Positions 8,129 to 63,302 of a stretch of DNA of 64,000 nucleotides are shown here, in pieces (position 1 is the stretch's first letter; each line of letters starts with the position of its first letter). The notes beneath the pieces are model-generated. The model ran no database searches, was not told where the DNA came from, and saw nothing but the letters and a program-made list of their open reading frames with translations. The DNA is from Aurantiochytrium sp. KH105 (lineage: Eukaryota; Sar; Bigyra; Thraustochytrida; Thraustochytriidae): positions 186,001-250,000 of the forward strand of contig BGKB01000063.1 in the NCBI GenBank assembly GCA_003116975.1, read 5' to 3'. The position numbers and the translations under genes were made by a program.

Positions 8129-9322
8129 CTAGTGATCGGGAATACATAAAACTTGTCGCAGAGTCTCGTTGAGAAAGGAAAAGTCGCCGTCGTTGAGAAT
8201 GAGGACGTCGTAGATTTCCTTGTACTCCTCGAGACGCTCCGTTACGTTAAAGTTGAGAAATCCTACCTTGAGTTCGCGTGTGGCGCGCACGTCCTCGGAA
8301 AGAAGGCCTTCCGACATGTGCACATCGCCTGTGCTGTCGCCCACGAGCAGCACCGTGGCGTCTTCGTCATCGCCCCATGACGCCAAAAGCTGCTGCCGCG
8401 CCTCGGGCGCAGCATGCGTAAAGCGCTTATTGAGCACCTGAAACGGTTCTCGACCGGCAAGCTCGGCCTCAAAGCCTCGCAGTGTTCCATTCTCGTTAAA
8501 GCAAAACTTGTTGGAAACTATTGTGATGTTGTCATAAAGCTGGCCGCGCTGGCGTAGAACTTCCTCGAGAACGTCTGCGATGCCGGCCGAGAAAATAAGA
8601 ACAGGAATTCCAGCTTTGGAGAGCATGCTAAGGAACTCGGGCACGCCGGCACGCAGCTCGACTCGAGCGCGTCGCACCGCCTCGGCAACGTATTCCTTGC
8701 GAAAGCCGGCTTCCTTGAGCGCCTCGTGCGCCTTTTCGACCCATTCGACCATATACTTGTACTTTTGCTCGTGCGAGATCTCGGCAGAGATCTCGAGAGG
8801 AAAGTACTTTTCCTGCAGGCCACGCGCCACGCGATGGTACGAGTCGGGCAGCAAGCCGCACTCTTCAATTGTGCGGTGACACGAGTATCCGCGTTCCTCG
8901 CCGACCCAAAACGTCGTCATCGTGTAGTCAAAGTCAATCACCACGCGCAACTTGTCTTTGCCGGCTCGCTTGAGCATTTCAATCTTCTCTGCAGCTGCCT
9001 CGGGATCTGTGAGAATCCGCTCGCCCTGCTTGAACGCGGCATCCCGCGGATCTGCGTGGAAACCACGTTTCTGCTGGCCCTGCGAGGAGGGCGCGCCCAC
9101 TGCGTGTCGCTTGCGGACGCCGGACAAGAGCGCCCCGGCGAAGACCGCGGCCCAGACGGCCGTGCCCAAGCCCGCCGCCGTGGCGTTGACCTCGCTCATC
9201 CTGGCCCTGGTCCCCGTCGCCGCTGCCGCCTGCGCCGTGGCCTCTGTTGCGCTCTCGGGCTTTGCTAAAAGGGGCCGGGTTTGCGTCAGGCGAGTCGTTG
9301 CGCGGCGTGCGCCAGCTAGCAT
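8129..9322 (-). CDS. Pyrimidine (cytosolic-III type) 5'-nucleotidase, UMPH-1 family
   Basis: A 397-residue HAD-superfamily nucleotidase that dephosphorylates pyrimidine nucleoside monophosphates (NT5C3/UMPH-1 family). The nucleophile motif DFDYTMT is at residues 130-136 (Asp130, Asp132). The motif II serine lies in SAG at 245-247, the motif III lysine is near 299, and GDSTGD at 328-333 binds magnesium. Compared with the usual roughly 300 residues there is a 110-residue N-terminal extension. It is Arg/Ala-rich and acid-poor for its first 22 residues, then has a hydrophobic segment at about 48-69. This suggests mitochondrial targeting or a membrane anchor, as some animal paralogues have. The ATG at 9322 is the first methionine. 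Confidence 0.9.
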   Translation of the reverse strand: MLAGARRATTRLTQTRPLLAKPESATEATAQAAAATGTRARMSEVNATAAGLGTAVWAAVFAGALLSGVRKRHAVGAPSSQGQQKRGFHADPRDAAFKQGERILTDPEAAAEKIEMLKRAGKDKLRVVIDFDYTMTTFWVGEERGYSCHRTIEECGLLPDSYHRVARGLQEKYFPLEISAEISHEQKYKYMVEWVEKAHEALKEAGFRKEYVAEAVRRARVELRAGVPEFLSMLSKAGIPVLIFSAGIADVLEEVLRQRGQLYDNITIVSNKFCFNENGTLRGFEAELAGREPFQVLNKRFTHAAPEARQQLLASWGDDEDATVLLVGDSTGDVHMSEGLLSEDVRATRELKVGFLNFNVTERLEEYKEIYDVLILNDGDFSFLNETLRQVLCIPDH

Positions 9323-9337
9323 CAAGCTGCACGGCGA

Positions 9338-9408
9338 TCAGGCGATCGATTGATCGAATCGATCGATCGACGGCGATCGATTCGTTCGATTGATCGATTG
9401 TTGGCTGG
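9338..9408. repeat. GATC/ATCGAT-rich low-complexity tract
   Basis: About 70 bases made almost entirely of ATCGATTG and GATCGATC units, many of them self-complementary. The tract sits just upstream of the nucleotidase start and 17 bases beyond the 3' end of the anoctamin gene. It is a simple repeat that could also fold. No function can be assigned. Confidence 0.7.
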
Positions 9409-9424
9409 CGATTCCCGGAATTCT

Positions 9425-11956
9425 CTACCGACGTTTCGCTATTGTTCCCAGGCTCTGGCGCTCATTAGTGCTCAAGTACGTGTACACGAAGAGGATCGCG
9501 CAGAGATGCTCCAGGAAGCCGGCAATGAGGACGCGGGCATGCAAGGTCAATGCGTCGCAGCCAATCCAATCGGGCGTCAGTTTATCCTGCTCAGAGGCGT
9601 CCTGCGCACAATGTGAATCGAAGCCGAAAACGCGATAGGCCACGTCGAGGGCACCCGTGGAGAGCGAGATCTGGACGCTGATGACGGGAATTGCCAGCCA
9701 TATTGTCGCGTAGAGCGCCGAAAGCCATTCGCCTGGCGTCTCGAGCGCACTCATCGGCACCGTTCGCTTGGAAGCAAACATTAGGCGATAGCAAGTACCT
9801 CGAAAGGAAAAGAGGAGACGGCATGATGCGGCGAGCGGCAAAAGGCCCCACGCGCTTGTGAACATGCACACATAGCCCATTTGGATGACAATGCTTAAGT
9901 AGTCGTCGTGCTCCGAATAACGCGGCAAGAGCGACTGCAAAATGACCTCGCTCGCATTAAGCTTGTTCAAATCTGGCGTGTTCTTGAATATGTGTATTTG
10001 CCGGCAAGACTCTGCTCCCACGACTTGCAAGTCCGCCGCTGTTGTGTCCCGACTACCCTCTTGACGAACTACCGGTGTCCCATCAGACCTTTCGTGCGCC
10101 ATCGTTATCAACCTTTCGTAAAGAGTTTCGGCTGAGTAGACCAGGGCTGGCGCGTTCGCATCGCGGACAGAGTGCCCTTCTGCGTCGCTCCCGAGGTCAA
10201 TGATTCTGCGTCTAGCGGCCTTGGCCGACAGAGCAAGACGCGCAATTCGCGAGGGCACAAAGGTCTCCAGAATGCCATTGACGAAGGAGGTGACCAAAAC
10301 GGGTGTGACAAAGGCCTCGTCGAGACGAATCTTGTCAGCACGCCAGCCCCAAGGCGGAACAATGTAGCCATGGCCCGCCGCGATGAGCCACTCTTGTATC
10401 GCGGCGCCAAAGGGCACGTATAAAAAGGTAATGGTCAAATACCACACAAACATATTGAGCCAAATGAAAAAGAAGGACTTGCGCACAAAAAACTTGTGAA
10501 AATCCTCCAAGGTTTCGTGGCCCTCTTGCACGGTGAGCCAAAAGGTGAGTCTGCGGAAGAATGAAGTTTGGAAAACGTCGAGAATGAGCCCCATGACAAT
10601 GCCTTGGCACAGAATGTAGACCCAGCGGTCGGTGCCAACTGTCGCAGCCTCATGAGAAAAGCAAACACCCCAATAACGGCAATCAGACGGCTGCGTTGCA
10701 AGCAAAAGTGGAAATTCTTCGCGATGTACAAAATATTCCCGGTAACAATTGGGAGGCCACATGGACTCGGGTACATCTTCCATCGCCTGTGAGCCGTTGC
10801 CAATGCCACTCTGGTGAAGCAGAAACTCGCAGCACTCACACGTGGGGGCGTGCTTGCCAAACACATACCATTGCGTGAAAAAGAGACTCACAGGAACCAA
10901 AAGGAGAATATTGACGGCCACAAAAAGCATGGTGAAGGCGCCCGCCGCGATGCGTCGCCGTTGCCGACGAGATGCCGATGCTTCTCGAAGCGATGCTGGC
11001 ACATTGGGATTTAGAATGCTTCCTGGGGCACTGACCACGTGGCGCGACTTCCATTGGCGAGCTAGAGTCATGAAGCGAAAGGTCCACCTTCGAGCGAGCC
11101 AAGGGCCCCAAGCTCCGCATGTAAAGACGCCAAAGACGCCGAGAAGAATCACATACGCATCCCACGACACGAAACGAACAAGCAGGTAGTTGGCTGTGGA
11201 CAATGTAGCCAGCGCAAGAACGCACCTTCGGTAGTGCAAGAGAAACTCGATCGAGACAGAGATTCGATCTCCAAATTGTTGACGAAGTGTCTCTGTACGC
11301 ATGGTCTCACTTGTTTGCAAAATCCAATGACGCCACACGTGCAGTAGACGCGCTCGCAAACGTGCGGCTAGCCCGAGGTTTGTAGGCGCAGAATAGCCAA
11401 GGGAATGGAGAAATGCCTCGTTAAAGTACTCATCCTGCAATGGAAAGATGTCATGCACAACGCTCTCCAGCGGGGTGGAACGCTCGCCGCCTCTGGTGAC
11501 GTCAAACGAGCGCGCAACACCGTTGACATCTGTATTGATGTCATCCAAGCATTGCTGAATAATGCAATTGGTGAGGACGAGCTCTTCGGCGGGTGACAAG
11601 TCGCTGACGTGGTGGTTTGCTAAGAGCTTCTCGTCGGTGATGGGAACGTTCAGTTTTGCGTTTTGTCGTCGAGCCAACTCTCGCTGCAGCGTCAGCGATG
11701 GCTCGTGGGCGTTGGCGTCGATTATGAGAACAATGTACTCGGGTGTGTCTGCTGTTTCGAGAAGAACGCCGACATGAAGGTTTGCTTTTATGAGGGCTTG
11801 GACGAGAGCGCAATGTAGTTCTTGAGCCTGACGCTTGTCGATACCATCGTCAGCAGCCGCTATGCGTAGAACGATTGCGAACGAGTACGCTAGGGTTGTG
11901 GCACTCTTTTTTGGTATTGATGACGATGCCGGTGGCTCTGCGTGCACGCGTGTCAT
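9425..11956 (-). CDS. Anoctamin/TMEM16-family membrane protein
   Basis: An 843-residue multispanning protein of the anoctamin family (ion channels, lipid scramblases or ER tethers). An acidic-basic N-terminal domain (1-230) precedes about ten membrane segments from residue 240 onward. The best family signature is LPRYSEHDDYLSIVIQMGYV at about 677-696, followed by a TSAWGLLPL segment equivalent to TM7-TM8. The TM6 motif N560-G-I-L-E564 with a following Pro keeps two calcium ligands. TM7 reads D685-Y-L-S688 where the family has E-x-x-E, and the TM8 E/D pair is replaced by small polar residues. A loop at 372-430 has cysteines (CECC, NC, DC, VC) typical of the disulfide-bearing extracellular loop. 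The gene is intronless. Confidence 0.85.
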   Translation of the reverse strand: MTRVHAEPPASSSIPKKSATTLAYSFAIVLRIAAADDGIDKRQAQELHCALVQALIKANLHVGVLLETADTPEYIVLIIDANAHEPSLTLQRELARRQNAKLNVPITDEKLLANHHVSDLSPAEELVLTNCIIQQCLDDINTDVNGVARSFDVTRGGERSTPLESVVHDIFPLQDEYFNEAFLHSLGYSAPTNLGLAARLRARLLHVWRHWILQTSETMRTETLRQQFGDRISVSIEFLLHYRRCVLALATLSTANYLLVRFVSWDAYVILLGVFGVFTCGAWGPWLARRWTFRFMTLARQWKSRHVVSAPGSILNPNVPASLREASASRRQRRRIAAGAFTMLFVAVNILLLVPVSLFFTQWYVFGKHAPTCECCEFLLHQSGIGNGSQAMEDVPESMWPPNCYREYFVHREEFPLLLATQPSDCRYWGVCFSHEAATVGTDRWVYILCQGIVMGLILDVFQTSFFRRLTFWLTVQEGHETLEDFHKFFVRKSFFFIWLNMFVWYLTITFLYVPFGAAIQEWLIAAGHGYIVPPWGWRADKIRLDEAFVTPVLVTSFVNGILETFVPSRIARLALSAKAARRRIIDLGSDAEGHSVRDANAPALVYSAETLYERLITMAHERSDGTPVVRQEGSRDTTAADLQVVGAESCRQIHIFKNTPDLNKLNASEVILQSLLPRYSEHDDYLSIVIQMGYVCMFTSAWGLLPLAASCRLLFSFRGTCYRLMFASKRTVPMSALETPGEWLSALYATIWLAIPVISVQISLSTGALDVAYRVFGFDSHCAQDASEQDKLTPDWIGCDALTLHARVLIAGFLEHLCAILFVYTYLSTNERQSLGTIAKRR

Positions 11957-13301
11957 GGGATAGCTTGGCTTTGTTGATTGCCAACCTACCTTCTCTCACT
12001 CCCTACCTACCGAGCCAGCTAGCTGTTCTAATGAGGGGGGCCTTGCTTTCTCCTTTTCCGATTGCGAGGGACGCTACAGCTCGCTCGTGCTCTGCTCTTT
12101 CGAAGAGTTATCAGGCCATGCGGTCGTGCATGCTCGGCAATCAAGCCCGACCAATCACACATACACACGCACAAGTGTAGATCCGCAAAAAGAGACGAAC
12201 AACAGATCCTGGTCGAAAAGGAGCCCAGCCACATGATTACAACTTGCCTCTCTGTCAACGGCCATGTCGTATCTCCTCCCAAGCGCAGCACCAATTTGCT
12301 GCCTTTCCTGCAATCAAATATGTATCCAATCTTATCCTCCAATAGGGCTCGCCGCGGCGCTGCATATCCATTCTATCCTGTATTGCTCGTAAAATCCTTT
12401 ATCATGTAGAGTCCCTCCCACTGGCAGTGCAACCAAGTGCAAGTGCACTGCAGTATCTTCATCCGGCTGCAGGACCCTGGCCGCCGCAAGTCAAGTCGCA
12501 AGTGCAACTTGGCCTCGTGCGCGCACTCGCGCAGCCAAGCTCCACGCGGATCCCCGGCCCACCCTCTCTTTGCCCTTGCGCCACGAACTGCGAATATCCC
12601 AGCAGCTGGCTGCAGGCAGTGCGCAAGCTAGCTGCAGTGCGCAAGCTAGCTGCAGCAGCCATGGCAAATGATCTGCCTGCAGCTGCCTGCACAGTGCTCT
12701 ATCTCTCTGGCACTGCGATGACTGCACTGCACTCACTGCCTGCAGCAGTGTTTCGTACTTTTGTTGTAGTGTAGGCCTGGTGCACGCGACGCTGCAGAGC
12801 AGCGCACAGAAGAAAGAAAGAAAAAAAGAAAGAAAGAAAGAAAGAAAGAAGGAGAGAAAGAAGGAGAGAAAGGCAGGAAGGAGGCGAGAGGAGCGCGGCC
12901 TCGCACGCACCCGGCGGGCGCGCGGCGCAGAGGCCGATCGTGCGGGCGGAGAGCGCGCGCGGGCACGCAGGCGGGGCAGACGCGCGACGCAGCGGCGAGA
13001 GAGCGCGCGAGCGACGCAGGCAGGCGGGCGGGCAGGCAGGCGCGTCCGGGCCGGCGCAGAGCGCGATCGAGGGGGCTGCCGCGAGCGAGCGAGCTCGCCG
13101 AGTGAGGCTGCCAGCAGAGGCAAGGCGAGCAAGGCAAAGCAGGCATCTTTCTTTCTTTCTTTCTTGCTTTCGCTCGCCTGCACGCGGCGCGACGCGAGCA
13201 AGCGCGCGGCGCGGAGGGAGAGGAGAGGAGGGCCCGGGAGGAGCAGGCGCGGACGAGCGCGGCAAGTGCGAGCAAGCGCGCGGTGAGGAGAAGAAGGCAC
13301 C
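11957..13301. repeat. Divergent promoter region with GAAA/CTTT tracts
   Basis: This 1.35 kb separates the anoctamin (-) from V-ATPase subunit D (+). CTGCAGTGC/AGCTAGCTGCAG-type degenerate repeats occupy about 12430-12760. A GAAA tetramer run spans about 12809-12880, and a TTTC run spans 13147-13168. Between them is very GC-rich GCGAGCGAGC sequence. Open frames on both strands encode only Lys/Arg/Ala or Ser/Leu low-complexity peptides. I see no gene. Confidence 0.7.
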
Positions 13302-14024
13302 ATGAGCAGCTCGGATCGCATCGATGGCGTCTTCGCCACCCGAATGAACCAGCAGACGTACAAGGCCAAGGTCAAGGGCGCCGAGAAGGGCTACGAGCTG
13401 CTGAAGAAGAAGGCAGACGCACTCAAGGCCAGGTTCCGCGCGCTCTTGAAGGAGATCAGGGACGCCAAGATGGCGCTTGCAGAGGAGATGCCGGCCGCCT
13501 TCTTGGGACTTGCCAGTGCAATGTACCTAAACGAGAAGTTCCGGGACAATGTCGCCTACGAGGTCAAGGACGCGTCCGTGCGCGTGTTCGCCTCTGAGGA
13601 TAACGTTGCTGGCGTGCGGCTTCCGGTGTTTCAGGAGAACTTTATTGAATCGCAAGGCGATCGCTTCGGACTTACGCAGGGTGGCCAGACCATCGAGCAG
13701 GCCAAAAAGAAGTTCCAGTCTCTCATCCTCAAGCTCGTCAAGCTCGCCAGTCTGCAGACCTCCTTTGTCACCCTCGATGAGGCGCTCAAGGTCACCAACC
13801 GCCGCGTCAACGCTCTCGAGTTCGTCGTCATCCCGCGCATGTCCGCCACTGTCAAGTACATTGCCAAGGAGCTCGATGAGATGGAGCGCGAAGAGTTCTT
13901 CCGCCTGAAAAAGGTTGTGGCCATGTCGGACGACGGTCCTCCCCCCGAGGACGTCGACACCAAGGAGGCCGAGACCGCGCTGCCTGGCTTCGACGAGAGC
14001 AACGAGGACGACGTCATTTTTTAA
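13302..14024 (+). CDS. VMA8: V-type proton ATPase subunit D
   Basis: A 240-residue central-stalk rotor subunit of the vacuolar H+-ATPase V1 sector, transmitting torque from ATP hydrolysis to the membrane ring. The length and the two long terminal helices fit the ATP-synt_D family. The N-terminal helix (about 13-75) includes [17 protein letters not shown]. The C-terminal helix includes [16 protein letters not shown] and a following [12 protein letters not shown] segment, the family's most conserved block. The tail is acidic, ending in DDVIF. The start has an excellent context (CACCATGAG). The gene converges on the EF-hand gene at 14551. Confidence 0.97.
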
Positions 14025-53407: not shown

Positions 53408-55120
53408 ATGGGGCAAGTCTTCGCGGCGCTGACGCGCGAGCGCAGGCTGCCGCTGCTGGCGCTCGCGATCGCGATGCTGCGCGTGCAAAAGACGGGAAAA
53501 CATGAGAGCCTGCTGGAAAAGTTTGGCGAGATCTTTGCCAACGGGTCGTACAGCGTCCGCGTACTCGGCGATGTCGTCGGCGTCTACGCCATCGTGAGCT
53601 TCGTGCGGCAGCTCATTGTGCTGCAGCGCACCATGCGAAGCATGACCTTGAAGCAAGCCAAGGATGCCATCGGAAACGACGTCGCAGACATGCTCAAGAG
53701 CGTTCCCGTGGTCAAGGACAAGATCAAGAGCGAATTCGAAAAGGTGGAAAAGGATCTCGAATTGTCTCTCAAGGACCCGGCCCGAGAGCGCATCATTACT
53801 CTCCCTGAGCAAGGCATTCCCAAGGAAGAAATTCTTGGCAAGATGCGTAAGCTTTACGGAAAGGAAAAGAGCAAGTGGCACGACGGCTGGGTGAGCGGGG
53901 CCGTGTACCATGGTGGTGACGAGCACATTGAAATGCAGAGCGAGGTCTTTGGCCTCTTTAACATTACCAACCCCCTCCATCCGGACATTTGGCCTAGTGT
54001 TATGCAGTTTGAGGCAGAGATCGTTTCCATGACCGCCAACCTCCTCAACGGCGGCACAGACACCGTCACTGGAACGATGACGTCGGGCGGCACCGAGTCC
54101 ATCATCATGGCCGCCAAGACGCACCGTGAATGGGCGCGCAAGGAACGCGGAATTACGAGGCCCGAGATTGTCGCCTGCGACACGGCGCATGCTGCCATCG
54201 ATAAAGCATGCGAGATGCTCGGCATCAAGCTCGTTCACGTCCCGATGGATGAAACGACTTGTGCAGCTGACCCCAAGGTGCTCGAGTCGTACGTGACTCC
54301 CGACACCATCATGATCTACTCGTCGGCTCCTCAGTACCCCCATGGCGTCATTGACCCCATTGCCAAACTCTCCGAGATTGCTGTCCGGAATGGCTGCGGT
54401 CTGCACGTCGACTGCTGCCTCGGTGGCTTCGTCCTTCCTTTTGCCAAAAAGCTCGGCTATGATATTCCCGATTTTGATTTTGGCCTCCCCGGCGTCACCT
54501 CGATGAGCTGCGATACGCACAAATACGGCTATGCGGCCAAGGGAACGAGTGTCGTGCTCTACCGCAGCGCGCATCTGCGCAACTATCAATACTTTAGCTA
54601 TCCTTCCTGGCTCGGTGGCGTGTACGTCACACCCAGTACGGCAGGCAGCCGCCCCGGCGCGCTCTCTGCGTGCACGTGGGCGTCCATGGTAGCCATGGGT
54701 GAAAAGGGTTTTCTTGAAGCGACGCAGAAAATTATGGACGCTGCCGCCAAGATCCGCAAGGCTGTCGAGGAGACCCCCGGCGTCCACGTTGTTGGCAAGG
54801 CGCAAGCCATGATCGTGGCCTTTGCATCCAAAGACTTTTCAGTTTACATGCTCGTCGATAAGCTCGAGCACCGCGGCTGGTCGCTCAACTCGCTTCAGCG
54901 CCCCGCGGCCGCGCACATTTGCGTCACCTTGCCCGTGGTTGCCAACGCCGACCAGTTCATCAAGGACCTTCGCGAGAGTGCCGCCGAGTGTCTTCGTGAT
55001 CCGAACCCGCCCAACAAGGACGAGGGTCAGGGCCGACTCTACGGCGCCGCATCTGCGCTCCCGTCGGGCCCCATCAAAGACGTTCTCAACACATACACGA
55101 ACGTCGTCCTCAAGGTCTAG
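53408..55120 (+). CDS. Sphingosine-1-phosphate lyase
   Basis: A 570-residue PLP-dependent enzyme that cleaves sphingosine-1-phosphate to a long-chain aldehyde and phosphoethanolamine, the final step of sphingolipid breakdown, on the ER membrane. One membrane segment at about 52-73 (VLGDVVGVYAIVSFVRQLIVL) precedes the cytosolic catalytic domain. Key motifs are SGGTES at 226-231 (phosphate contact), HVDCCLGGF at 333-341 (Asp335 contacts the pyridine nitrogen) and DTHKYGYAAKG at 369-379 (Lys372 forms the Schiff base). Length and order match SGPL1/Dpl1. An AATAAA signal lies 48 bases after the stop. A Spinster-like carrier lies 50 kb away at 1856, but the two are not a cluster. Confidence 0.96.
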   Translation: MGQVFAALTRERRLPLLALAIAMLRVQKTGKHESLLEKFGEIFANGSYSVRVLGDVVGVYAIVSFVRQLIVLQRTMRSMTLKQAKDAIGNDVADMLKSVPVVKDKIKSEFEKVEKDLELSLKDPARERIITLPEQGIPKEEILGKMRKLYGKEKSKWHDGWVSGAVYHGGDEHIEMQSEVFGLFNITNPLHPDIWPSVMQFEAEIVSMTANLLNGGTDTVTGTMTSGGTESIIMAAKTHREWARKERGITRPEIVACDTAHAAIDKACEMLGIKLVHVPMDETTCAADPKVLESYVTPDTIMIYSSAPQYPHGVIDPIAKLSEIAVRNGCGLHVDCCLGGFVLPFAKKLGYDIPDFDFGLPGVTSMSCDTHKYGYAAKGTSVVLYRSAHLRNYQYFSYPSWLGGVYVTPSTAGSRPGALSACTWASMVAMGEKGFLEATQKIMDAAAKIRKAVEETPGVHVVGKAQAMIVAFASKDFSVYMLVDKLEHRGWSLNSLQRPAAAHICVTLPVVANADQFIKDLRESAAECLRDPNPPNKDEGQGRLYGAASALPSGPIKDVLNTYTNVVLKV

Positions 55121-55173: not shown

Positions 55174-55356
55174 TGTAGTATGTTACAAAGTACCCAACGT
55201 CTGGAGTGCGTGAGTATAGGTCGATCGAACGATGCAGATAAAGACTCTTGTGCAAGACTGTCGTTCATTAACAAGATATGGAAGACCAAGAGGGAAATGC
55301 ATTCAAACGATTGACTTTATTGACTTTGTTGAGCCCTTCCATGTATGGGCTGGCTT

Positions 55357-56703
55357 TCAGGAGAAATACTTGTCGCTACTTGATCTCGGGCCAGTTTTGC
55401 GCCGCTTTTTGGCTGAGCCGGAGTGTTGCGGAGCGCCTTCATTCTCCTCGTGTCTGGCTTCGCGCCGGCTCTTGTGGTAATTGTTGAGGACAGAATGCAT
55501 AGTGCTGAGAACGGCGGGGCCAGATTCAGCCAATGTACGTGAGACGATACTTCGATCTCCGGATCGAATACGTGCATACGGTTTTCCTTTGATGCTTGTT
55601 CTTCCGACGCATATCTTTTTCGTATACTTGTTTTGCTGCACCATGGTATAAAATTTTGAATGAAGTTTCAGGAGCTTCGTGCTACAGACTTGAGCGACAA
55701 TGCTGGAGACGTCGCTATCCGTTTCTCTCATCTTACCACGAGGTCTCGTCTTCTCGAAAATCACGTTATCGCGAGACAAGAAATACGGTCCTCCGATGCG
55801 AGTTCCATTCTCGTCATAAACATTGATGTTATCGAAACGCGCTGCGGAGAGAAGCTCTGGGGTCAAAGGTGACTTGCCCGGTTCGAGGTCGAGTTTCAAC
55901 ATTTCCTCAGCTTCGTCGAAAGTGACGCGGGCGATTTCTGTCTTCGAGAATCGGGCAACAGCGATCACCTGACAACCCTTTTGTTCAGAGGATGTAATGT
56001 AGGTGACAAGTTTTCCGTATGAGGACTCTCTTTCTGAAACCTCCTCGGGCGTCTCCTCGGGCGTCTCGGGTTCTGCGCTGTCATCATCACTCCGATGACC
56101 CTCGGGGGTGACAACAACAACTTCAGGCGGAGTAGGTGTCGCAGGCGTTTGGCCGTCCTGCTCGCAAAGCATCGGTAGAAGATATGAAGGCAGGACCACG
56201 CTTGCATAAAGAGTGCGATGAAAAATGGCTCGAAATTCCGACACCTTTTTCTTCATGTTAGCATCCTCGGTTGCTCCATCGTTTGTCCAAGGGCTATCGT
56301 CCGAGACATTTTCATTCTGAGACGACTGAGTTTGTCTCTCTAAAATTTCTAAGTTCTCGTTCACCACTTGAAATGAGTTCCATGCCTTGTCCGAGAGCTT
56401 CTTATGATGCTTGTCTAGGCGAGGCTGTTTGTCGGGATGTATGATCAGAAGAAGCTGTTTTGCTATACGTGACCCTTCAGGATCATCAAGGGTTCTCATC
56501 CACTGCGTAAATTTCATAAGCTTGGCGGGACCTTCCCTCTTATGCATCTCAATCACTCTTTTGAAGATCTTGGGAAGCAGAATGCTGATCGAGAGGAGAC
56601 CTTCAAAGAACGAAAGAAAAGCATCGTCGTCTCCTCGTTCCACATTCTCTTCTTCGTCATCGCTGAGAGCCCGGGGAACATGCGTTGCGCTATCTGCCTT
56701 CAT
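55357..56703 (-). CDS. Orphan protein with J-like HPDK motif and nuclear signal
   Basis: A 448-residue protein that I do not recognise. Residues 78-122 contain IAKQLLLIIHPDK, with HPDK at 89-92 and then basic DKHHKKLSDKAWNSFQVVNENLEIL. This fits helices II and III of a DnaJ J-domain with its Hsp70-activating HPD tripeptide. The usual helix I (Y-x-x-L-G) is missing or diverged. The middle is Pro/Glu/Thr-rich (PETPEETPEEVSE). The C-terminal part contains LARFSKTEIARV-like and IARVTFDEA segments, and the end has a bipartite nuclear-type signal (SAKKRRKTG). Composition is visibly lower in GC than in neighbouring genes (roughly 40-52 percent in the lines I counted). Its ATG at 56703 faces the repeat array, and the gene is divergent to the orphan at 59304. 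Confidence 0.72.
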   Translation of the reverse strand: MKADSATHVPRALSDDEEENVERGDDDAFLSFFEGLLSISILLPKIFKRVIEMHKREGPAKLMKFTQWMRTLDDPEGSRIAKQLLLIIHPDKQPRLDKHHKKLSDKAWNSFQVVNENLEILERQTQSSQNENVSDDSPWTNDGATEDANMKKKVSEFRAIFHRTLYASVVLPSYLLPMLCEQDGQTPATPTPPEVVVVTPEGHRSDDDSAEPETPEETPEEVSERESSYGKLVTYITSSEQKGCQVIAVARFSKTEIARVTFDEAEEMLKLDLEPGKSPLTPELLSAARFDNINVYDENGTRIGGPYFLSRDNVIFEKTRPRGKMRETDSDVSSIVAQVCSTKLLKLHSKFYTMVQQNKYTKKICVGRTSIKGKPYARIRSGDRSIVSRTLAESGPAVLSTMHSVLNNYHKSRREARHEENEGAPQHSGSAKKRRKTGPRSSSDKYFS

Positions 56704-56847
56704 ATTGGTGAGGATGTTCTCGAGCTTGCTTCAACCAAGGATTATGGATTTGTCGAGCATGAGCTAAAATTTAGGCATCGCTACAGAATACAATGCAGCT
56801 CATTTGGCTCCTATGTTGCTCGGAAGTATTCTACGCGTGGAGTCGAG

Positions 56848-59076
56848 TCACCAGCATCCTTGGGAGAGGAGAGCAGCGGGAGCTCGTGCGCGAGGGCGTC
56901 ACAAGGTGCCGGTTCCGGAGCGTGAAGGTTGCGTGATTCTCCGTGTCGCTATCTGAGTCGAATATATCGGCAGTGCGCTTTGGCGAGGACGACCGCTCGA
57001 CCCGGAAGATCCTCCCCAGCGGAAGGAGCGGAGAGTAAAGGCAGATCGGCGCATCATCCCGGACGCGAACGCCCCTCAAAGATTCCGTAGCCAGTCCAGT
57101 CCGGCAATCAAGACAAGTGAGTAGCAAGACGGTAGGCGTAGCCTACTTGCGTCCGCGATAGTGCTCGACAGCACTATTCTCGAAGCTTGATGTCGCGCGC
57201 GATGCTCCTCTTATGAAGTCGGCGCAGCAGCTTCCTACCAAGAGGTGAACCGCGAGAGAGCTTGTGCGGGAGGACGTCTCAAGAGACCGGCCCTGGTCCG
57301 CGATAGTGCTCGACACTCTTCTCGAAGCTTGATGTCGCGCGCGATGCTCCTTTTATGAAGTCGGCGCAGCAGCCTCCTTCCAAGAGGTGAGCCGCGAGAG
57401 AGCTCGTGCGGGAGGACGTCTCAAGAGACCGGCCCTGAGGCGCGGAGGTTGCGTGATTCTCCAGGTCGCTATCTGAGCCAAATACATCGGGAGTGAGCTT
57501 CGGCGAGGACGGCCGCTCGACCCGGAGAGATCCTCAGCAGCGGAAGGAGCGGAGGGCAAAGTCAGATCGGCAGCATCATCCTGGACGTGAATTCTTCTCA
57601 GAGACCCTGTCGCCAGCCCAGTCCGGCATTCACGACATATGGCTAGCAAAACGCTAAGCTTAGCCTACTTGTGTGATGCTCGACAGCACTATTCTCGAAG
57701 CTTAATGTCGCGCGTGATGCTCCTCTGACGGAGTCAGTGCAGCAGCTTCCTTCCAAGAGGTGAGCCGCGAGAGAGCTTAGGCGGGAGGACGTCTCAAGAG
57801 ACCGGCCCTGGGGCGTGAAGGTTGTGTAATTCTCCGGGTCGCTATTTGAGCCGAATATATCGGGAGTGAGCTTCGGCGAGAACGGCCGCTCGACCCGGAA
57901 AGATCCTCCGCAGCGAAAGGAGTGGAGGGCAAAGTCAGATCGGCCGCATTATCCTGGACGTAAACCCTCCTCACAGATCCTGTCGCCGGCCCAGTCCAGC
58001 AATCACGACATATGGCTAGCAAAACGGTAGGCTTAGCCTACTTGCGTCCGCGATAGTGCTCGACACTCTTCTCGAAGCTTGATGTCGCGCGCGATGCTCC
58101 TTTTATGAAGTCGGCGCAGCAGCCTCCTTCCAAGAGGTGAGCCGCGAGAGAGCTCGTGCGGGAGGACGTCTCAAGAGACCGGCCCTGAGGCGCGAAGGTT
58201 GCGTGATTCTCCGGGTCGCTATCTGAGCCGAATATATCGGGAGTGAGCTTCGGCGAGGACGGCCGCTCGACCCGGAGAGATCCTTCCCAGCGGAAGGTGC
58301 GGAGGGTAAAGGCAGATCGGCCGCATCATTCCGGACGCGAACGCCCCTCAAACATCCCGTAGCCAGTCCAGTCTAGCAATCAAGACAAGTGAGTTGCAAG
58401 ACGGTAGGCTTAGCCAACTTGCGTCCGCGGTAGTCTCGAAGCTCGTTGTCGCGCATGGTGCTCCTTTTATGAAGTCGGCGCAGCAGCTTCCTACCAAGAG
58501 GTGAACCGCGAGAGAGCTTGTGCGGGAGGACGTCTCAAGAGACCGGCCCTGGGGCGTGAAGGTTGCGTGATTCTCCGGGTCGCTATCTGAGTCGAATATA
58601 TCGACAGTGAGCTTCTGCGAGGACGACCGCTCGACCCAGAAAGATCCTCCCCAGCGGAAGGTGCGGAGGGTAAAGGCAGATCGGCCGCATCATTCCGGAC
58701 GCGAACGCCCCTCAAACATCCCGTAGCCAGTCCAGTCCGGCAATCAAGACAAGTGAGTTGCAAGGCTTAGCCTACTTGCGTCCGCGATAGTGCTCGACAC
58801 TCTTCTCGAAGCTTGATGTCGCGCGCGATGCTCCTCTTATGAAGTCGGCGCAGCAGCTTCCTACCAAGAGGTGAACCGCGAGAGAGCTTGTGCGGGAGGA
58901 CGTCTCAAGAGACCGACACTGGGGCGCGAAGATTGCGTGATTCTCCGGACCGCTTTCTGAGTCTAAAATATCAGTAAGTTTCTGCGAGGACGAACGCTCG
59001 ATCCGAAAATATGATCTGCAGTGGAGGGAGTGGAGGGCAGAGGCAGATCGGCCGCATCATCCTGCACGTTATTGTT
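56848..59076. repeat. Tandem array of about 370-bp repeat units
   Basis: Six units of about 370 bases, marked by the anchor GCGTGATTCT at 56931, 57451, 57824 (diverged), 58201, 58565 and 58935, giving spacings of 520, 373, 377, 364 and 370. The extra 150 bases in the first interval are an internal partial duplication of about 145 bases (GTCCGCGATAGTGCTCGACA at 57151 again at about 57296). The first and last units are degenerate, which is typical of array edges. Each unit includes a GAATATATCGG element, a CTCGAAGCTTGATGTCGCGCG block and CTTCCAAGAGGTGAGCCGCG. The minus strand of each unit has an open frame of 80-98 codons with a shared sequence, but inter-unit spacings are not multiples of three. 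The array fills the gap between two divergent orphan genes. Confidence 0.9.
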
Positions 59077-59303
59077 GCCTTTGAATCACATAGACTTCCC
59101 CGCGCGTTTTCAGTTACATATCTTATTTCAACACATTCAAGGTTTATCGATCCGCGTCCTTTCCCCTCTGTCCGTGGAGGGTATTTATTGATCGGGGCAG
59201 CAGCAAAACCATAACTGGTCGACAAAGTTTGACCTTTTGAAGGCATTTGACTTTGCTTATCTAGACACCCATTATCTTGGTTCAAGCTCAGTCAGGCTTC
59301 ACC

Positions 59304-60287
59304 ATGCCTTCTGACGAAGACCACTCCGTAGCACCTCAAGTTCTTATCCAAGCTGGACTTGATAAAAGCACCAAGCTCGTGGTGAAAGAAGTGCGAAAAA
59401 TTGGACAAGAAGCGACGGCGACGTTGGAAAAAGTGGGAACGGATCTTAATACGTTTCAACGCAAGGCGGATGTTCTCGTTCAGAAGGTCATGGGAAAAGC
59501 ACCTGATGATCCAGAGCTAAGTAAGCGAAAGGATGCTACTGACGACGACGATAATTTCTACTCGTTGTACAGGCGAATTGAACGCAAGTTCAGTGCAGAA
59601 CTTGTGGCGTTTTATCGTGACAGTGCTACGAAGCTCCTTAACAATGAAACCTGCCCACCATTGCTCACCTCGGATGCCCCGTATCGCATCCATGTCTGTG
59701 GGGGGGTCGTTTGCCCATTCTCGATCGGCTTTCTCATCATGCTTGGCTCGATCCCGGAGACCGAGCTCACCTTTCCGCGGCTTGAGAAGGTGTACACAAT
59801 TGCTCTCAGTGCAGCTGCCGAATACAGGGCGAAGAAATCTGTTCTTACACGCGAAAATACAAATCTTAGTCAGATGAGGCAAAGGCGCAATGGTGAATGG
59901 ACTTATACGTGGTTCACCAATAAAATTAGGAAGGAGGGACTTTCCGAGAATGTGAGGAAACTATGTCGAGTCTGCCGAGACTTTGTGCTCGCCTTTATCT
60001 CCAAACAACAACAAGACCAGCACACAAAGAACAGCACCAAAGCCGCAAAGGAAATGGCTGAAGTGCTAAAGAAGCTCGTGCCGCAAGTAAAGAAGGATCT
60101 TCACGCAGTAGTGGGCCAGGTTAGTGAGATGGAACACCTTGGTTGTGTTCACATGATGACAAGCCACATTTCGTCCAAATCAGGCAGAAAAAGGGCCGTG
60201 AAGTTCTTGACGGAAATGATGGACGAAGATGAGCATTTGGAGCATAACAGCAAGAAACCGCGTTCGCCCACTACGAATCCGCCTTAA
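59304..60287 (+). CDS. Orphan protein, coiled coil and cysteine-rich hydrophobic segment
   Basis: A 327-residue protein with no family I recognise. The ATG at 59304 sits in CACCATGCC, the best start context. Residues 20-70 look helical. An acidic stretch (DDDDN) follows near 80. A hydrophobic, cysteine-containing segment (VCGGVVCPFSIGFLIMLGSIP) at 131-151 could be a membrane or buried helix. More cysteines (LCRVCRDFVLAF) precede a Lys/Gln-rich coiled-coil region. The C-terminus is basic and acidic, ending in KKPRSPTTNPP. Base composition is lower in GC (near 47 percent in the line I counted) than the adjacent channel gene. It shares the array and divergent orientation with the J-like orphan, and lies only 123 bases from the two-pore channel. 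Confidence 0.7.
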   Translation: MPSDEDHSVAPQVLIQAGLDKSTKLVVKEVRKIGQEATATLEKVGTDLNTFQRKADVLVQKVMGKAPDDPELSKRKDATDDDDNFYSLYRRIERKFSAELVAFYRDSATKLLNNETCPPLLTSDAPYRIHVCGGVVCPFSIGFLIMLGSIPETELTFPRLEKVYTIALSAAAEYRAKKSVLTRENTNLSQMRQRRNGEWTYTWFTNKIRKEGLSENVRKLCRVCRDFVLAFISKQQQDQHTKNSTKAAKEMAEVLKKLVPQVKKDLHAVVGQVSEMEHLGCVHMMTSHISSKSGRKRAVKFLTEMMDEDEHLEHNSKKPRSPTTNPP

Positions 60288-60355
60288 AAATGAATCACAA
60301 GCTGTGCAACGACCGCAAGAAAAGAAAGACAAACTTTTCACACAAATTCGAGACA

Positions 60356-60361
60356 AATAAA
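60356..60361 (+). terminator. Probable polyadenylation signal of the 59304 orphan gene
   Basis: AATAAA lies 69 bases after the stop codon and 50 bases before the next gene's start, so 3'-end formation of this gene and the promoter of the channel share 123 bases. The signal is inferred from sequence and distance only. Confidence 0.45.
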
Positions 60362-60410
60362 GAATTTTTATCAGAGCAGCAGAATCGTTTCATCGTTTAC
60401 GGAGGGAGAG

Positions 60411-63302
60411 ATGAAGGACGGGAGGACGAGGTCGCTTTGGCCGGTGCGCGAGGCAGCAGAGTCGCGTGAAGACGGGGCAGACCGTGCGGGCGGCACGCAC
60501 GACGCCGAGGAGCGTCGTGCTGGCGAACGCATGGCCCTCCTCGAAGGTAGCACCAGCACCAATAACAATCATGGCGGTGTCAGCCATGCACCCGGAGCTA
60601 CTGGCGGGGGACTCACAAGCGGATATCAGAGCTTGCCGAACATTGCTGACGCCAGAGCAAGGCGCAGCGGGCGCCTGGGGTCCGCGCTGGACTACAGCGA
60701 CATGAGCGACGATGACCTCGAGCTCAAGCGTCGCATGCATGCCGTTCACGTCGCAGCAATGTACATTAGAGCGGCACTTTTCGACAGACGTATCTCGTTT
60801 CTCACGGATCCGGACTCGCTCTGGTACGTGCGCGTGTACGAAAGCTCGGGCATGCGCGCTCTTGTGGATGCCTCTCTTCTCGGATATCTGTTGATCACCT
60901 TTTACGAGAAAAACGACGGTTCGCAGCCCGCATGGACCTACGTTGTTGAGACCTCTGCGTGGACTTTCCTGGCGGTCATGTTCTCCCTACGCGTTCGCTT
61001 CACAGATCTAAAGCAGCTTCAGCGCAGTCTTTTTGCAAAGATACATGCTTTTGCGCTCACCGTGGCCTTGATTGATCTCATTGCGAGCATTTACATGAAC
61101 GCAGTCGCACATCATCCGTATTATCGCTATGCACGTGTTGTACGACCTCTTTTGCAGCTCGAGTACTCGCATTTGGTGCGTAGACGTGTCATCGACATTC
61201 TTCGAACGTGCTGGCGGGTTCGTGCGGCCTTTTTACTGCTCGCCTTTGAGATTACTTTTTTTGCCGTGGTGGCCATCTTTCTCTTTTATGGATCAGAGGA
61301 AGGCGACCAGTTCTTCAACTCGATGGGTGAATCGATTGTTACGCTGGTGATTCTTCTTTCAACGTGTAACTCGCCTTCTGTCATGGTGCCTGCGTACGAG
61401 TCGAACCCGTGGAGCGCACTTTTTTTCGTCTGTTTCTTGGTGGTCTCGGTCTTCCTCATGCTCAACTTGCTCCTTGCAGTTATTTACAAAGAGCATCGTC
61501 GTCATCTTTTGCACGAGGCGAAGCGACAGGCTGTGCGCAAGCGCGCCTGCACATCGGCAGCCTTTCGCGTGCTTCGACAAGAAAGCATGCACAGTCTCGC
61601 GCCCGCCTTGCGTCCGACCAGTTTCGGACCCGTGGGTGTGCCCGATGGCCTCGTCGCTGATTTGCTCGTTGATCTCGGCGTGAATGTCGAAGACGCTCCT
61701 TTGCTGGTCAGTCTACTCGGAGAGGGACGCACTCCTGGCTTTGTATTTCGTGACGACTTCGAGGACGTTTTGCTCGTATTGCATTTTACCATCAAGGAGC
61801 ATGCGTCCGAGGAGGAGGAGGTTGATGCCTTCTTTGGGGACAATGATATGATTGCGAATGAGGACGCAGAGGGCGCCGGCGCCGGCGCCGGCGCCACGCA
61901 TGATGGAACGAACGCTGCCAGCGGCGAAGGAAACTTCAATGTTTCGGGGCGGTCATTCTTCAATGGGTCGCCAATGTCGCGCACACGGTCTGATGTTGCT
62001 GCCACGCCCATGAGCGGGCACTTGAGCGAAGCAGAAATCTCCTCGCCAGGATCATTGTCTCGCCCGGCCAATGTGCGCCGAAGTAAACCCATGTCTCGCT
62101 CAAGGCAGATTGCCATCCGTCTGGTCAAGCACGAGATTTGGATACCCTGCATTGGCAGAGCGCGCACTCTCGACCTTGCTGTGAACACCTTGCTCATCGT
62201 CTCTGGTCTCATTACTGTCACTGCGCTTTCCGTAGACATTGACGTGGTCATTTACGACGATCCCCTTCCATTCCGCATCATTAATCGTTGCTGCACGCTG
62301 CTATTTGCCACAGAGATTGCTGTCCGTGTCCACGCGGCCTCGCCTCGTCGTTTTTTTGAGTCTGCGTGGAACACCTTTGAGTTTATTATTGTTAGCGCTT
62401 CTCTGATCGGAACGCTCTCGCAGGTCTTCACCCCCAAGCTTTCAGGCCATACTCATCTCTTGCTCTTTTTGCGAAAATTGCGTCTGCTGCGACTCCTGCG
62501 TTCTGTGCCACAGTTTCGGCTCCTCACGGAGATGATTGTTTATCTTTTGCCAGCCCTCTACATTTTCTCACGCGTCATTTTCTTCTTCATGTACATCATT
62601 GCCATTGTGGCAATGGGCACTCTCGACATGCAGTTGCAAGATGCGTCCGATTTCGCAGCAACCAACTTTCTTACCTTTGCAAATGCGTTGCTCACGCTCT
62701 TCCAGCTCATGGTCGTCAACGACTGGAATAAGACCATGCGTGCTTATTATGCGGCAACAGGCAACCCACTGGTCTACGTCTTTTTCATTGCCAATTATCT
62801 CTTTAGCGTCATGGTTGTCCTCAACGTGGTCACCTCCTTTGCGCTTGAGGCCCTCGACAAGAATATTGCGGACTTTGCTTTGCTGCAGGACGCCGTGCCC
62901 GCGGGGGATGCCAACTCGGTCAGTAGCACGGAGCGATTGGAGCTACAGATGCGCGAGCAGGCCCGGTTGCAGCAGCGACGACAGAACTCACGTCGAGAAC
63001 GCGACCTTTTCCAGGGTCGCCAAAGCCGTGTCGGCCTTGCTGCAAGTGTTGGCGACGACCGCAGCGATCGCGAGCTTAAGCGCACCTTTAGCTACGTGGA
63101 GCGACTCCAGACGGTGCGCAAGGTGAATCGCGTTGTTCGTGCGGCTCCGAGGGAGTCTCATCTTGTCCGCCTCTTGCGCGATGTCTTTGACAACGAAATG
63201 GACGAACCCACAATTGCGGAGATCAATCAAGAGCTTCGGCGCAATGGCCTCTCCAATCTACTTTCTCGCCCAGCACAGCGCGATGATGTCTCCACCAGCT
63301 GA
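60411..63302 (+). CDS. Two-pore channel (TPC) family cation channel
   Basis: A 963-residue voltage-gated-like cation channel with two six-helix domains. Domain I spans about 110-365, its pore filter TCNSPSVMVPAY at 318-329. Domain II spans about 580-850, its S4 with regularly spaced arginines (FLRKLRLLRLLRS, 686-698) and filter VVNDWN at 768-773. This filter pair (NxPxVMxPAY and VVNxW) is characteristic of two-pore channels, which conduct sodium or calcium in endolysosomes or vacuoles. The N-terminus (1-100) and the I-II linker (365-570) are low complexity, including a GAGAGAGA run from a GCCGGC hexamer repeat at 61876-61896. The C-terminus is long and basic. The ATG at 60411 is the first in frame. 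Confidence 0.9.
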   Translation: MKDGRTRSLWPVREAAESREDGADRAGGTHDAEERRAGERMALLEGSTSTNNNHGGVSHAPGATGGGLTSGYQSLPNIADARARRSGRLGSALDYSDMSDDDLELKRRMHAVHVAAMYIRAALFDRRISFLTDPDSLWYVRVYESSGMRALVDASLLGYLLITFYEKNDGSQPAWTYVVETSAWTFLAVMFSLRVRFTDLKQLQRSLFAKIHAFALTVALIDLIASIYMNAVAHHPYYRYARVVRPLLQLEYSHLVRRRVIDILRTCWRVRAAFLLLAFEITFFAVVAIFLFYGSEEGDQFFNSMGESIVTLVILLSTCNSPSVMVPAYESNPWSALFFVCFLVVSVFLMLNLLLAVIYKEHRRHLLHEAKRQAVRKRACTSAAFRVLRQESMHSLAPALRPTSFGPVGVPDGLVADLLVDLGVNVEDAPLLVSLLGEGRTPGFVFRDDFEDVLLVLHFTIKEHASEEEEVDAFFGDNDMIANEDAEGAGAGAGATHDGTNAASGEGNFNVSGRSFFNGSPMSRTRSDVAATPMSGHLSEAEISSPGSLSRPANVRRSKPMSRSRQIAIRLVKHEIWIPCIGRARTLDLAVNTLLIVSGLITVTALSVDIDVVIYDDPLPFRIINRCCTLLFATEIAVRVHAASPRRFFESAWNTFEFIIVSASLIGTLSQVFTPKLSGHTHLLLFLRKLRLLRLLRSVPQFRLLTEMIVYLLPALYIFSRVIFFFMYIIAIVAMGTLDMQLQDASDFAATNFLTFANALLTLFQLMVVNDWNKTMRAYYAATGNPLVYVFFIANYLFSVMVVLNVVTSFALEALDKNIADFALLQDAVPAGDANSVSSTERLELQMREQARLQQRRQNSRRERDLFQGRQSRVGLAASVGDDRSDRELKRTFSYVERLQTVRKVNRVVRAAPRESHLVRLLRDVFDNEMDEPTIAEINQELRRNGLSNLLSRPAQRDDVSTS

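Follow-up and report, generated by a model that had tools for sequence, protein, structure and literature searches.

The subject of this work is a pair of divergently oriented genes, A and B, located in a 64,000-nucleotide stretch of the genome of the thraustochytrid Aurantiochytrium sp. KH105 (contig BGKB01000063.1, positions 186,001 to 250,000; this whole stretch is called the window, and its contig, one of 367 in a 76.0-Mb assembly, is called C63). A sequence-only reading of the window had described two open reading frames (ORFs) of low GC content that point away from a tandem array, and this arrangement was confirmed: A is encoded on the minus strand, B is encoded on the plus strand, and the array was recovered both with Tandem Repeats Finder (TRF) and by manual delimitation (Table 1). 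On the best reading of the evidence, the window carries one allele of a two-gene locus, ancient and hyperdivergent, of this diploid genome.

Table 1. Features of the A-B locus and its surroundings (positions within the window)
Feature	Position	Strand	Remarks
Gene A	55357..56703	minus	448 aa (amino acids), intact ORF; putative divergent J domain at the N-terminus, central AVARFS, basic C-terminus
Gene B	59304..60287	plus	327 aa, intact ORF; not assignable to a known family; pairs divergently with A
Hyperdivergent island, 4957 bp	55269..60225		C63-C38 alignment; flanks about 95% identical up to 55268 and from 60226
J-like region of A, residues ~25-130	56314..56631	minus	HPD at residues 89-91; profile match to PDB 1iur
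AVARFS of A, residues 248-253	55945..55962	minus	invariant in 6/6 A proteins
Basic C-terminal cluster of A, GSAKKRRKTGPR	55384..55419	minus	possible nuclear signal; seen in sequence
Tandem array between the A and B start codons, haplotype-specific	56931..59075		six units: 520, 373, 377, 364, 370 and 141 bp
Palindrome copy 1, 15 bp, GTAGGCGTAGCCTAC	57132..57146		sequence scan of the array
Left flank gene, pyridoxal-dependent decarboxylase family	53408..55120	plus	Pfam; allelic dS 0.090
Right flank gene, ion transport protein	60411..63302	plus	Pfam; allelic dS 0.072

The assembly carries both haplotypes of the strain, the second haplotype of the window being represented by contig C38. Passages of the KH105 genome paper give the scaffold total as 76.7 Mb in the text and 86.0 Mb in a table, and read duplicated genes as diploidy (PMC5924542). 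C63 and C38 are collinear over about 82 kb, mostly at 94-95% identity (85% at positions 5-828 and 87-90% at 40.4-46.2 kb), with a single large break at 55268-60226. Among 165 intervals of 500 bp, 14 fell below 0.80 matched identity. Nine of the 14 are within 56001-60500, each below 0.5, and five of the nine contain no match at all. The five low intervals away from the locus (12501, 28001, 42001, 42501 and 69001) have identities of 0.55-0.78. C38 encodes an A protein of 491 aa and a B protein of 338 aa in the same order and orientation, 2.0 kb apart, and the intergenic DNA between them yields no alignment between C63 and C38. The allelic proteins are 57% (A) and 40% (B) identical; in each case the two alleles are mutually the closest relatives, with other family members reaching at most 21% for A and 22% for B.

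Synonymous divergence (dS), calculated by the Nei-Gojobori method (NG86), was compared between C63 and C38 for 32 non-overlapping ORFs of at least 240 aa. For 28 of them dS is 0.03-0.13; A reaches 0.47 and B 0.99, far above the chromosomal background, as would be expected of a long-term balanced polymorphism. Such values are not expected from relaxed constraint alone and require old alleles, introgression or a local excess of mutation. Along A, dS decreases stepwise, from about 1.0-1.15 in codons 1-191 through 0.48 in codons 192-256 to 0.15-0.18 in codons 257-439. Along B, it amounts to 1.8-2.0 at the N-terminus, 0.37 in codons 124-183, then 1.3-1.5, and 0.22 in the last codons. The best reading is that the promoters, the N-terminal parts of both proteins and most of the B coding sequence have been separated from the other allele for far longer than the surrounding chromosome. 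The insertion of a foreign element, which had been offered as one explanation of the locus, fits poorly, because the pair occupies the same site in both haplotypes and dS declines toward its outer ends. The Pfam search of window proteins covered four proteins.

Genome searches with A, B and a third gene, M, described below, identified six copies of the A-B pair, on C63, C38, C58, C342, C99 and C102, which constitute two allelic pairs plus two more. The window B as a query found five copies and missed C102, which was found with the B of C58; family matches beyond the six copies had E values above 0.02 and were not included. Such weak matches comprise M to C113, C4 and C104 (E 0.03-0.17) and A to C240 (0.098). 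Residues 85-167 of the C58 A protein also match C19:2192-2437 and C3:530267-530512 at E 0.8-1, within frames of 1728 and 1680 codons, probably by chance. In all six copies, A and B stand together in divergent orientation, and no copy contains an internal stop (the A gene of C342 is cut by the end of its contig, a 15.7-kb piece with a flank that matches C101 and C92). The identity matrices of A and B are strongly correlated (Spearman 0.96; 4 of 720 label permutations are equally good), which indicates that the pair evolves as a unit. Together with the basic stretches in both proteins, these observations uphold the earlier proposal that A and B are linked. Homologues of the two proteins standing apart at unlinked loci, which would have spoken against that proposal, were not encountered; pairs without an array, on the other hand, do occur, at C38 and C99. 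The low GC content noticed earlier is likewise real (0.49 in A and 0.48 in B, against 0.54-0.63 in most length-conserved neighbours), and it recurs at C38 and C99; it is not family-wide, being absent from C58 (A 0.59, B 0.61) and C342.

At C58, C342, C99 and C102, M is located between B and A in the order B<- M-> A->, on the same strand as A. Its centre looks like a coiled coil, a hydrophobic segment lies at its C-terminus, and its matches to TMF, DUF745, SMC and others (best E 1.7e-4; below the curated cut-offs where these are given) were dismissed as coiled-coil noise. At C63 and C38 the searches gave no M, and tblastn of the A-B gap for a remnant gave a best E of 0.76. C99 and C102 are mutual haplotypes with about 94% identity over 13 kb on each side, and between C99:67000-76900 and C102:158500-168400 the B-M-A module of about 6.7 kb is inverted relative to its flanks. 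About 200-480 bp of unmatched sequence stand at the C102 inversion borders. Neither N runs nor inverted repeats were found at the C99 and C102 borders, and one run of 218 N lies in the B-M gap of C102; the inversion could still be an assembly error. The proteins of this second locus evolve fast: dN/dS (the ratio of nonsynonymous to synonymous divergence) between C99 and C102 is 1.14 for B, 0.66 for A and 0.47 for M, against 0.04-0.25 in seven length-conserved neighbours. Two neighbours of unequal length have values of 0.80 and 0.67, and one ORF lacks a counterpart. Against the nine pooled neighbours, Fisher tests gave p=4e-12 for B, 0.0013 for A and 0.08 for M.

The left flank of the C58 copy (C58:224500-234400) matches C17:224897-226451 at 91%, and this similarity ends about 500 bp before A. 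The genome searches gave no match of A, B or M on C17; thus, the C58 copy looks hemizygous, and its module is possibly a presence/absence polymorphism, with the other haplotype lacking a copy. Positions 9073-9890 of the same C58 stretch hold part of a high-copy repeat (of 40 candidates scored out of 85, most are 85-95% identical and on other contigs), perhaps a transposable element next to the module. As to a mobile element, no transposase appears in the Pfam rows of A, B and M (for M, the best 25 of 46 rows), and, as noted, the C99 and C102 borders bear no inverted repeats. A viral origin was also considered and rejected: pattern scans of IMG/VR touched 26 (A), 91 (B) and 386 (M) stretches, none of which was confirmed, and no convincing PHROG was found, the match of M to a PHROG minor head protein (0.016) being taken as chance.

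The proteins were compared with Pfam, NCBIfam, PHROGs and PDB sequences, although not every copy of A and B was run against every library. According to the profile evidence, A is a protein with a divergent J (Hsp40) domain. A profile of its J-like region matches PDB 1iur (KIAA0730 protein), which we take to be the J domain of human sacsin, at E=2e-4, and the whole-A profile matches it at E=0.0073. The alignment includes the HPD loop and the following helix, and the HPD tripeptide is invariant in the six A proteins; however, the similarity is confined to about 60 residues. The domain is described as divergent because none of the six A proteins is picked up by the DnaJ model of Pfam, even at E values up to 10; their Pfam rows consist of DUF4460 and HHD_RTEL1 only, each in one member at E 0.02. 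Other DnaJ-family chains match the J-region profile at E 0.1-0.9, which is not significant (DNAJC8 0.096, DnaJ 0.18, DNAJB8 0.19). Besides the silence of the Pfam model, two results count against the assignment: MCM chains take second and third place (E 0.034 and 0.035) and six of the 20 rows, and the window A as a single query has a designed protein as its sole PDB match (E=0.0061). Outside the J region, including AVARFS, A has no convincing match in any of the four libraries.

The earlier remark that neither protein could be placed in a family thus stands for B and has to be given up for A. None of the Pfam or NCBIfam matches of B comes near a curated cut-off, no PHROG is convincing, and its PDB rows begin only at E=0.6; among its Pfam rows, the best ones (Zw10_N 0.011, Gag_p17 0.028 and others) match a single member of six each and were rejected as chance. 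Neither A nor B contains a clear transmembrane (TM) segment, as judged from Pfam and from hydropathy over 19 residues, whose maximum ranges from 0.98 to 2.07, with the top value in B of C63. No homeobox family is present among the Pfam matches of the six A and six B proteins at E up to 10. Both proteins carry basic stretches in their C-terminal halves. The basic C-terminal signals noticed earlier hold for A, where such a stretch lies near the C-terminus in all six copies; in B they are weaker. These stretches suggest a nuclear location, more clearly for A than for B.

We tentatively favour the view, to which we give somewhat less than an even chance, that the locus serves self/non-self recognition, either mating-type-like or allorecognition, and that balancing selection on this discrimination would have kept its alleles apart over a long time. 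The A and B proteins of one haplotype could form a cognate nuclear complex, with the divergent parts of both setting its specificity and the J domain of A recruiting Hsp70 to assemble or dismantle it. Signalling would then be confined to a single class of A-B combinations, either self or non-self, and the shared promoter would keep the two genes linked and co-expressed. A more specific version is distinctly less probable and is put forward as a conjecture: that these two genes make up the locus for mating type or allorecognition in this thraustochytrid, the first to be known from its class of protists, and that its specificity has a new chemistry, an allele-matched complex in which a nuclear J-domain protein joins a partner of unknown fold; the pair would be related to the multi-copy B-M-A module, with M missing here.

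Several known systems offer parallels. Passages of one source on the basidiomycete homeodomain (HD) mating-type locus describe a divergent gene pair in which the alleles have diverged far more than the flanking DNA and identity drops at the edge of the locus, as in the window (PMC8305134). The same passages list an N-terminal specificity domain and a large inversion, the latter between mating types of Agaricus bisporus var. burnettii. In contrast, A and B have no homeodomain, A has a putative J domain, and the family occurs as several unlinked copies, four of them with M. In Tetrahymena thermophila, MTA and MTB form a head-to-head pair with shared ends outside and specific parts inside (PMC10901506); the likeness, drawn by description and not by direct sequence alignment, is the head-to-head pair, whereas neither the TM helices nor the cysteine-rich GFR domain of the shared terminal exon was found in A or B. 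A likeness to A is offered by HSP40L of the Botryllus fuhc locus, a polymorphic J-domain protein encoded in a recognition locus; passages of a review state that no other polymorphic DnaJ-family member was known to its authors (PMC12065747). According to these passages, HSP40L is closely similar to DNAJC21, was found in the cytoplasm of mammalian cells and varies in its C-terminal tail, while in A the N-terminal part has diverged most. All three likenesses are to be read as analogies, and where membership was tested it fails, as there is no homeodomain and no TM domain.

A number of observations weigh against a recognition locus. The data consist of two alleles from one individual, in one genome, and the proposed role is deduced from sequence. 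The library matches of A and B in Pfam and NCBIfam include no homeodomain, HMG box, receptor or pheromone signature, and the nuclear location is indicated by a single kind of feature, the basic stretches, which are weak in B. The divergence of B is patchy, with the value of 0.37 standing between values above 1.3, and DNA identity, 96% in the flank, falls abruptly to 81% within the 3' part of A. Equally high allelic dS was obtained for two other ORFs, 274-1203 (1.28) and 12491-13321 (0.67); both were taken as spurious because their lengths differ between the haplotypes (309/234 and 276/213 aa), and both are still counted among the 32. At the second locus, the C99 and C102 alleles have ordinary dS and are not hyperdivergent, and the dN/dS of B may not truly exceed 1. 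Several unlinked loci and one apparently hemizygous copy would suit a selfish or immune family equally well. Finally, the best pair of matches to a model of DMC1 stays under the curated cut-off, and the same model matched below the cut-off in 12 of 14 controls. As a separate observation, ORF 274-1203 contains a CCAAG-rich array with a higher-order period of 121 bp at 655-1062.

The array had been placed at the centre of the sequence-only reading, and its position was reproduced: its edges, as cut by hand, stand 227 and 228 bp from the two start codons, so that all six units are enclosed between the first codons. TRF delimits it at 57296-59069 (period 377, 4.8 copies, score 2401), with an additional 142-bp doublet at 57151-57437, and self-similarity extends back to about 56839. 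Over its 2.1 kb, the first five units are mutually 83-94% identical, the 520-bp unit holds an internal duplication of about 145 bp, the 141-bp unit is a remnant, and the longest stretch between stops is 113 residues. The palindrome occurs five times, with further copies starting at 57654, 58027, 58404 and 58761 (0-2 mismatches to GTAGGCTTAGCCTAC); at no more than two mismatches, none was found outside the array in the joined stretches of six contigs. A DNA search of the assembly that skipped very common words matched only the array's own site, which speaks against a dispersed satellite. Nor is the array a constant partner of the pair: no array with a period of at least 60 exists at C38, C99 or C102 (the last with its run of 218 N at that place), and those of C63 (about 370 bp), C58 (219 bp) and C342 (222 bp) share no sequence. 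The array was rejected as the core of the locus because the C38 haplotype lacks it and the arrays at other copies are unrelated. Repeats with a period of at least 60 occur at four places in about 280 kb fetched, and three of the four lie upstream of B in the A-B family; this enrichment is only suggestive, since the stretches were chosen for holding the family. Such intergenic arrays may arise as by-products or serve as tuning elements, and would expand at sites for which the other haplotype gives no template.

Other explanations of the pair have to be set against recognition. The earlier idea, in which A or B would bind to the array as a platform and so act on its own shared promoter, could appeal to the palindrome, to the basic character of both proteins and to the position of the repeats upstream of B; with three copies devoid of an array, unrelated arrays at the others and the palindrome absent from every other copy, we consider it very improbable. 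A toxin-antidote system, in which one gene poisons gametes or spores (a killer or meiotic driver) and the other rescues them, so that ancient rival haplotypes persist by mutual killing, is unlikely, yet the strongest of the competitors. It would account for a tight divergent pair, for its fast evolution, for the several unlinked loci, for the apparently hemizygous C58 copy, and for a B-M-A module that is inverted between haplotypes and whose M has a hydrophobic C-terminal segment. In Caenorhabditis, the linked toxin and antidote genes peel-1 and zeel-1 lie on an ancient divergent haplotype, a likeness to the present pair; that element is present or absent, whereas at the window locus an intact A-B pair is found on each haplotype. 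Moreover, none of the six copies has lost a partner or shows an internal stop, the basic C-termini suggest nuclear proteins, and the library matches contain no toxin-like signature.

Somewhat less probable still is a head-to-head immune or antiviral pair, composed of a sensor and an executor, whose diversity would be maintained by parasites. Paired plant nucleotide-binding leucine-rich repeat (NLR) genes are head-to-head pairs of this kind, and divergent genes with hyperdivergent alleles, structural variation among copies and a B dN/dS near 1 would agree with such a role; however, the Pfam, NCBIfam and PHROG matches of A and B include no NLR core, nuclease or TIR-like domain, and NLRC4_HD was matched only weakly by B (E=0.077, one of six members), which was taken as chance. 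Of the same low probability is a neutral accident, in which one haplotype would have acquired a short tract, either by introgression from a distant relative or by conversion from an unsampled paralogue, under no lasting selection. The haplotypes differ by about 5%, so that hybrid ancestry is possible; only two alleles are known, and the patchy dS of B and the abrupt drop of identity at the 3' end of A would also be compatible with it. On the other side, the divergent tract coincides with the gene pair, dS along A changes in steps and not at a single border, and the family shows fast protein evolution at the independent C99/C102 locus.

A model of MND1 exceeded its cut-off at two places, on one contig pair, and among the 14 controls it matched one and exceeded the cut-off in none; this presence of MND1 makes meiosis plausible, which counts in favour of a recognition locus. 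Matches to the DMC1 model fall into six contig pairs with like scores within each, in keeping with an assembly that carries both haplotypes. Two of these, C173/C20 and C32/C27, are DMC1/RAD51-like, one as a single-piece match scoring 436.9 bits against a cut-off of 447.7 and the other in several pieces. Passages of two later articles refer to a 2019 paper on Aurantiochytrium acetophilum whose evidence of sexual reproduction is termed the first (PMC11642839, PMC12692134). Among the matches listed in a search of open-access literature (titles and abstract openings), there was no thraustochytrid mating-type locus.

Sex in thraustochytrids is poorly known, and a locus that bears the genetic signature of a mating type offers a precise target for breeders and evolutionary biologists. 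If it is true that a J-domain protein sets specificity here, recognition loci of two distant lineages would each include a polymorphic Hsp40, A in this case and HSP40L in Botryllus.

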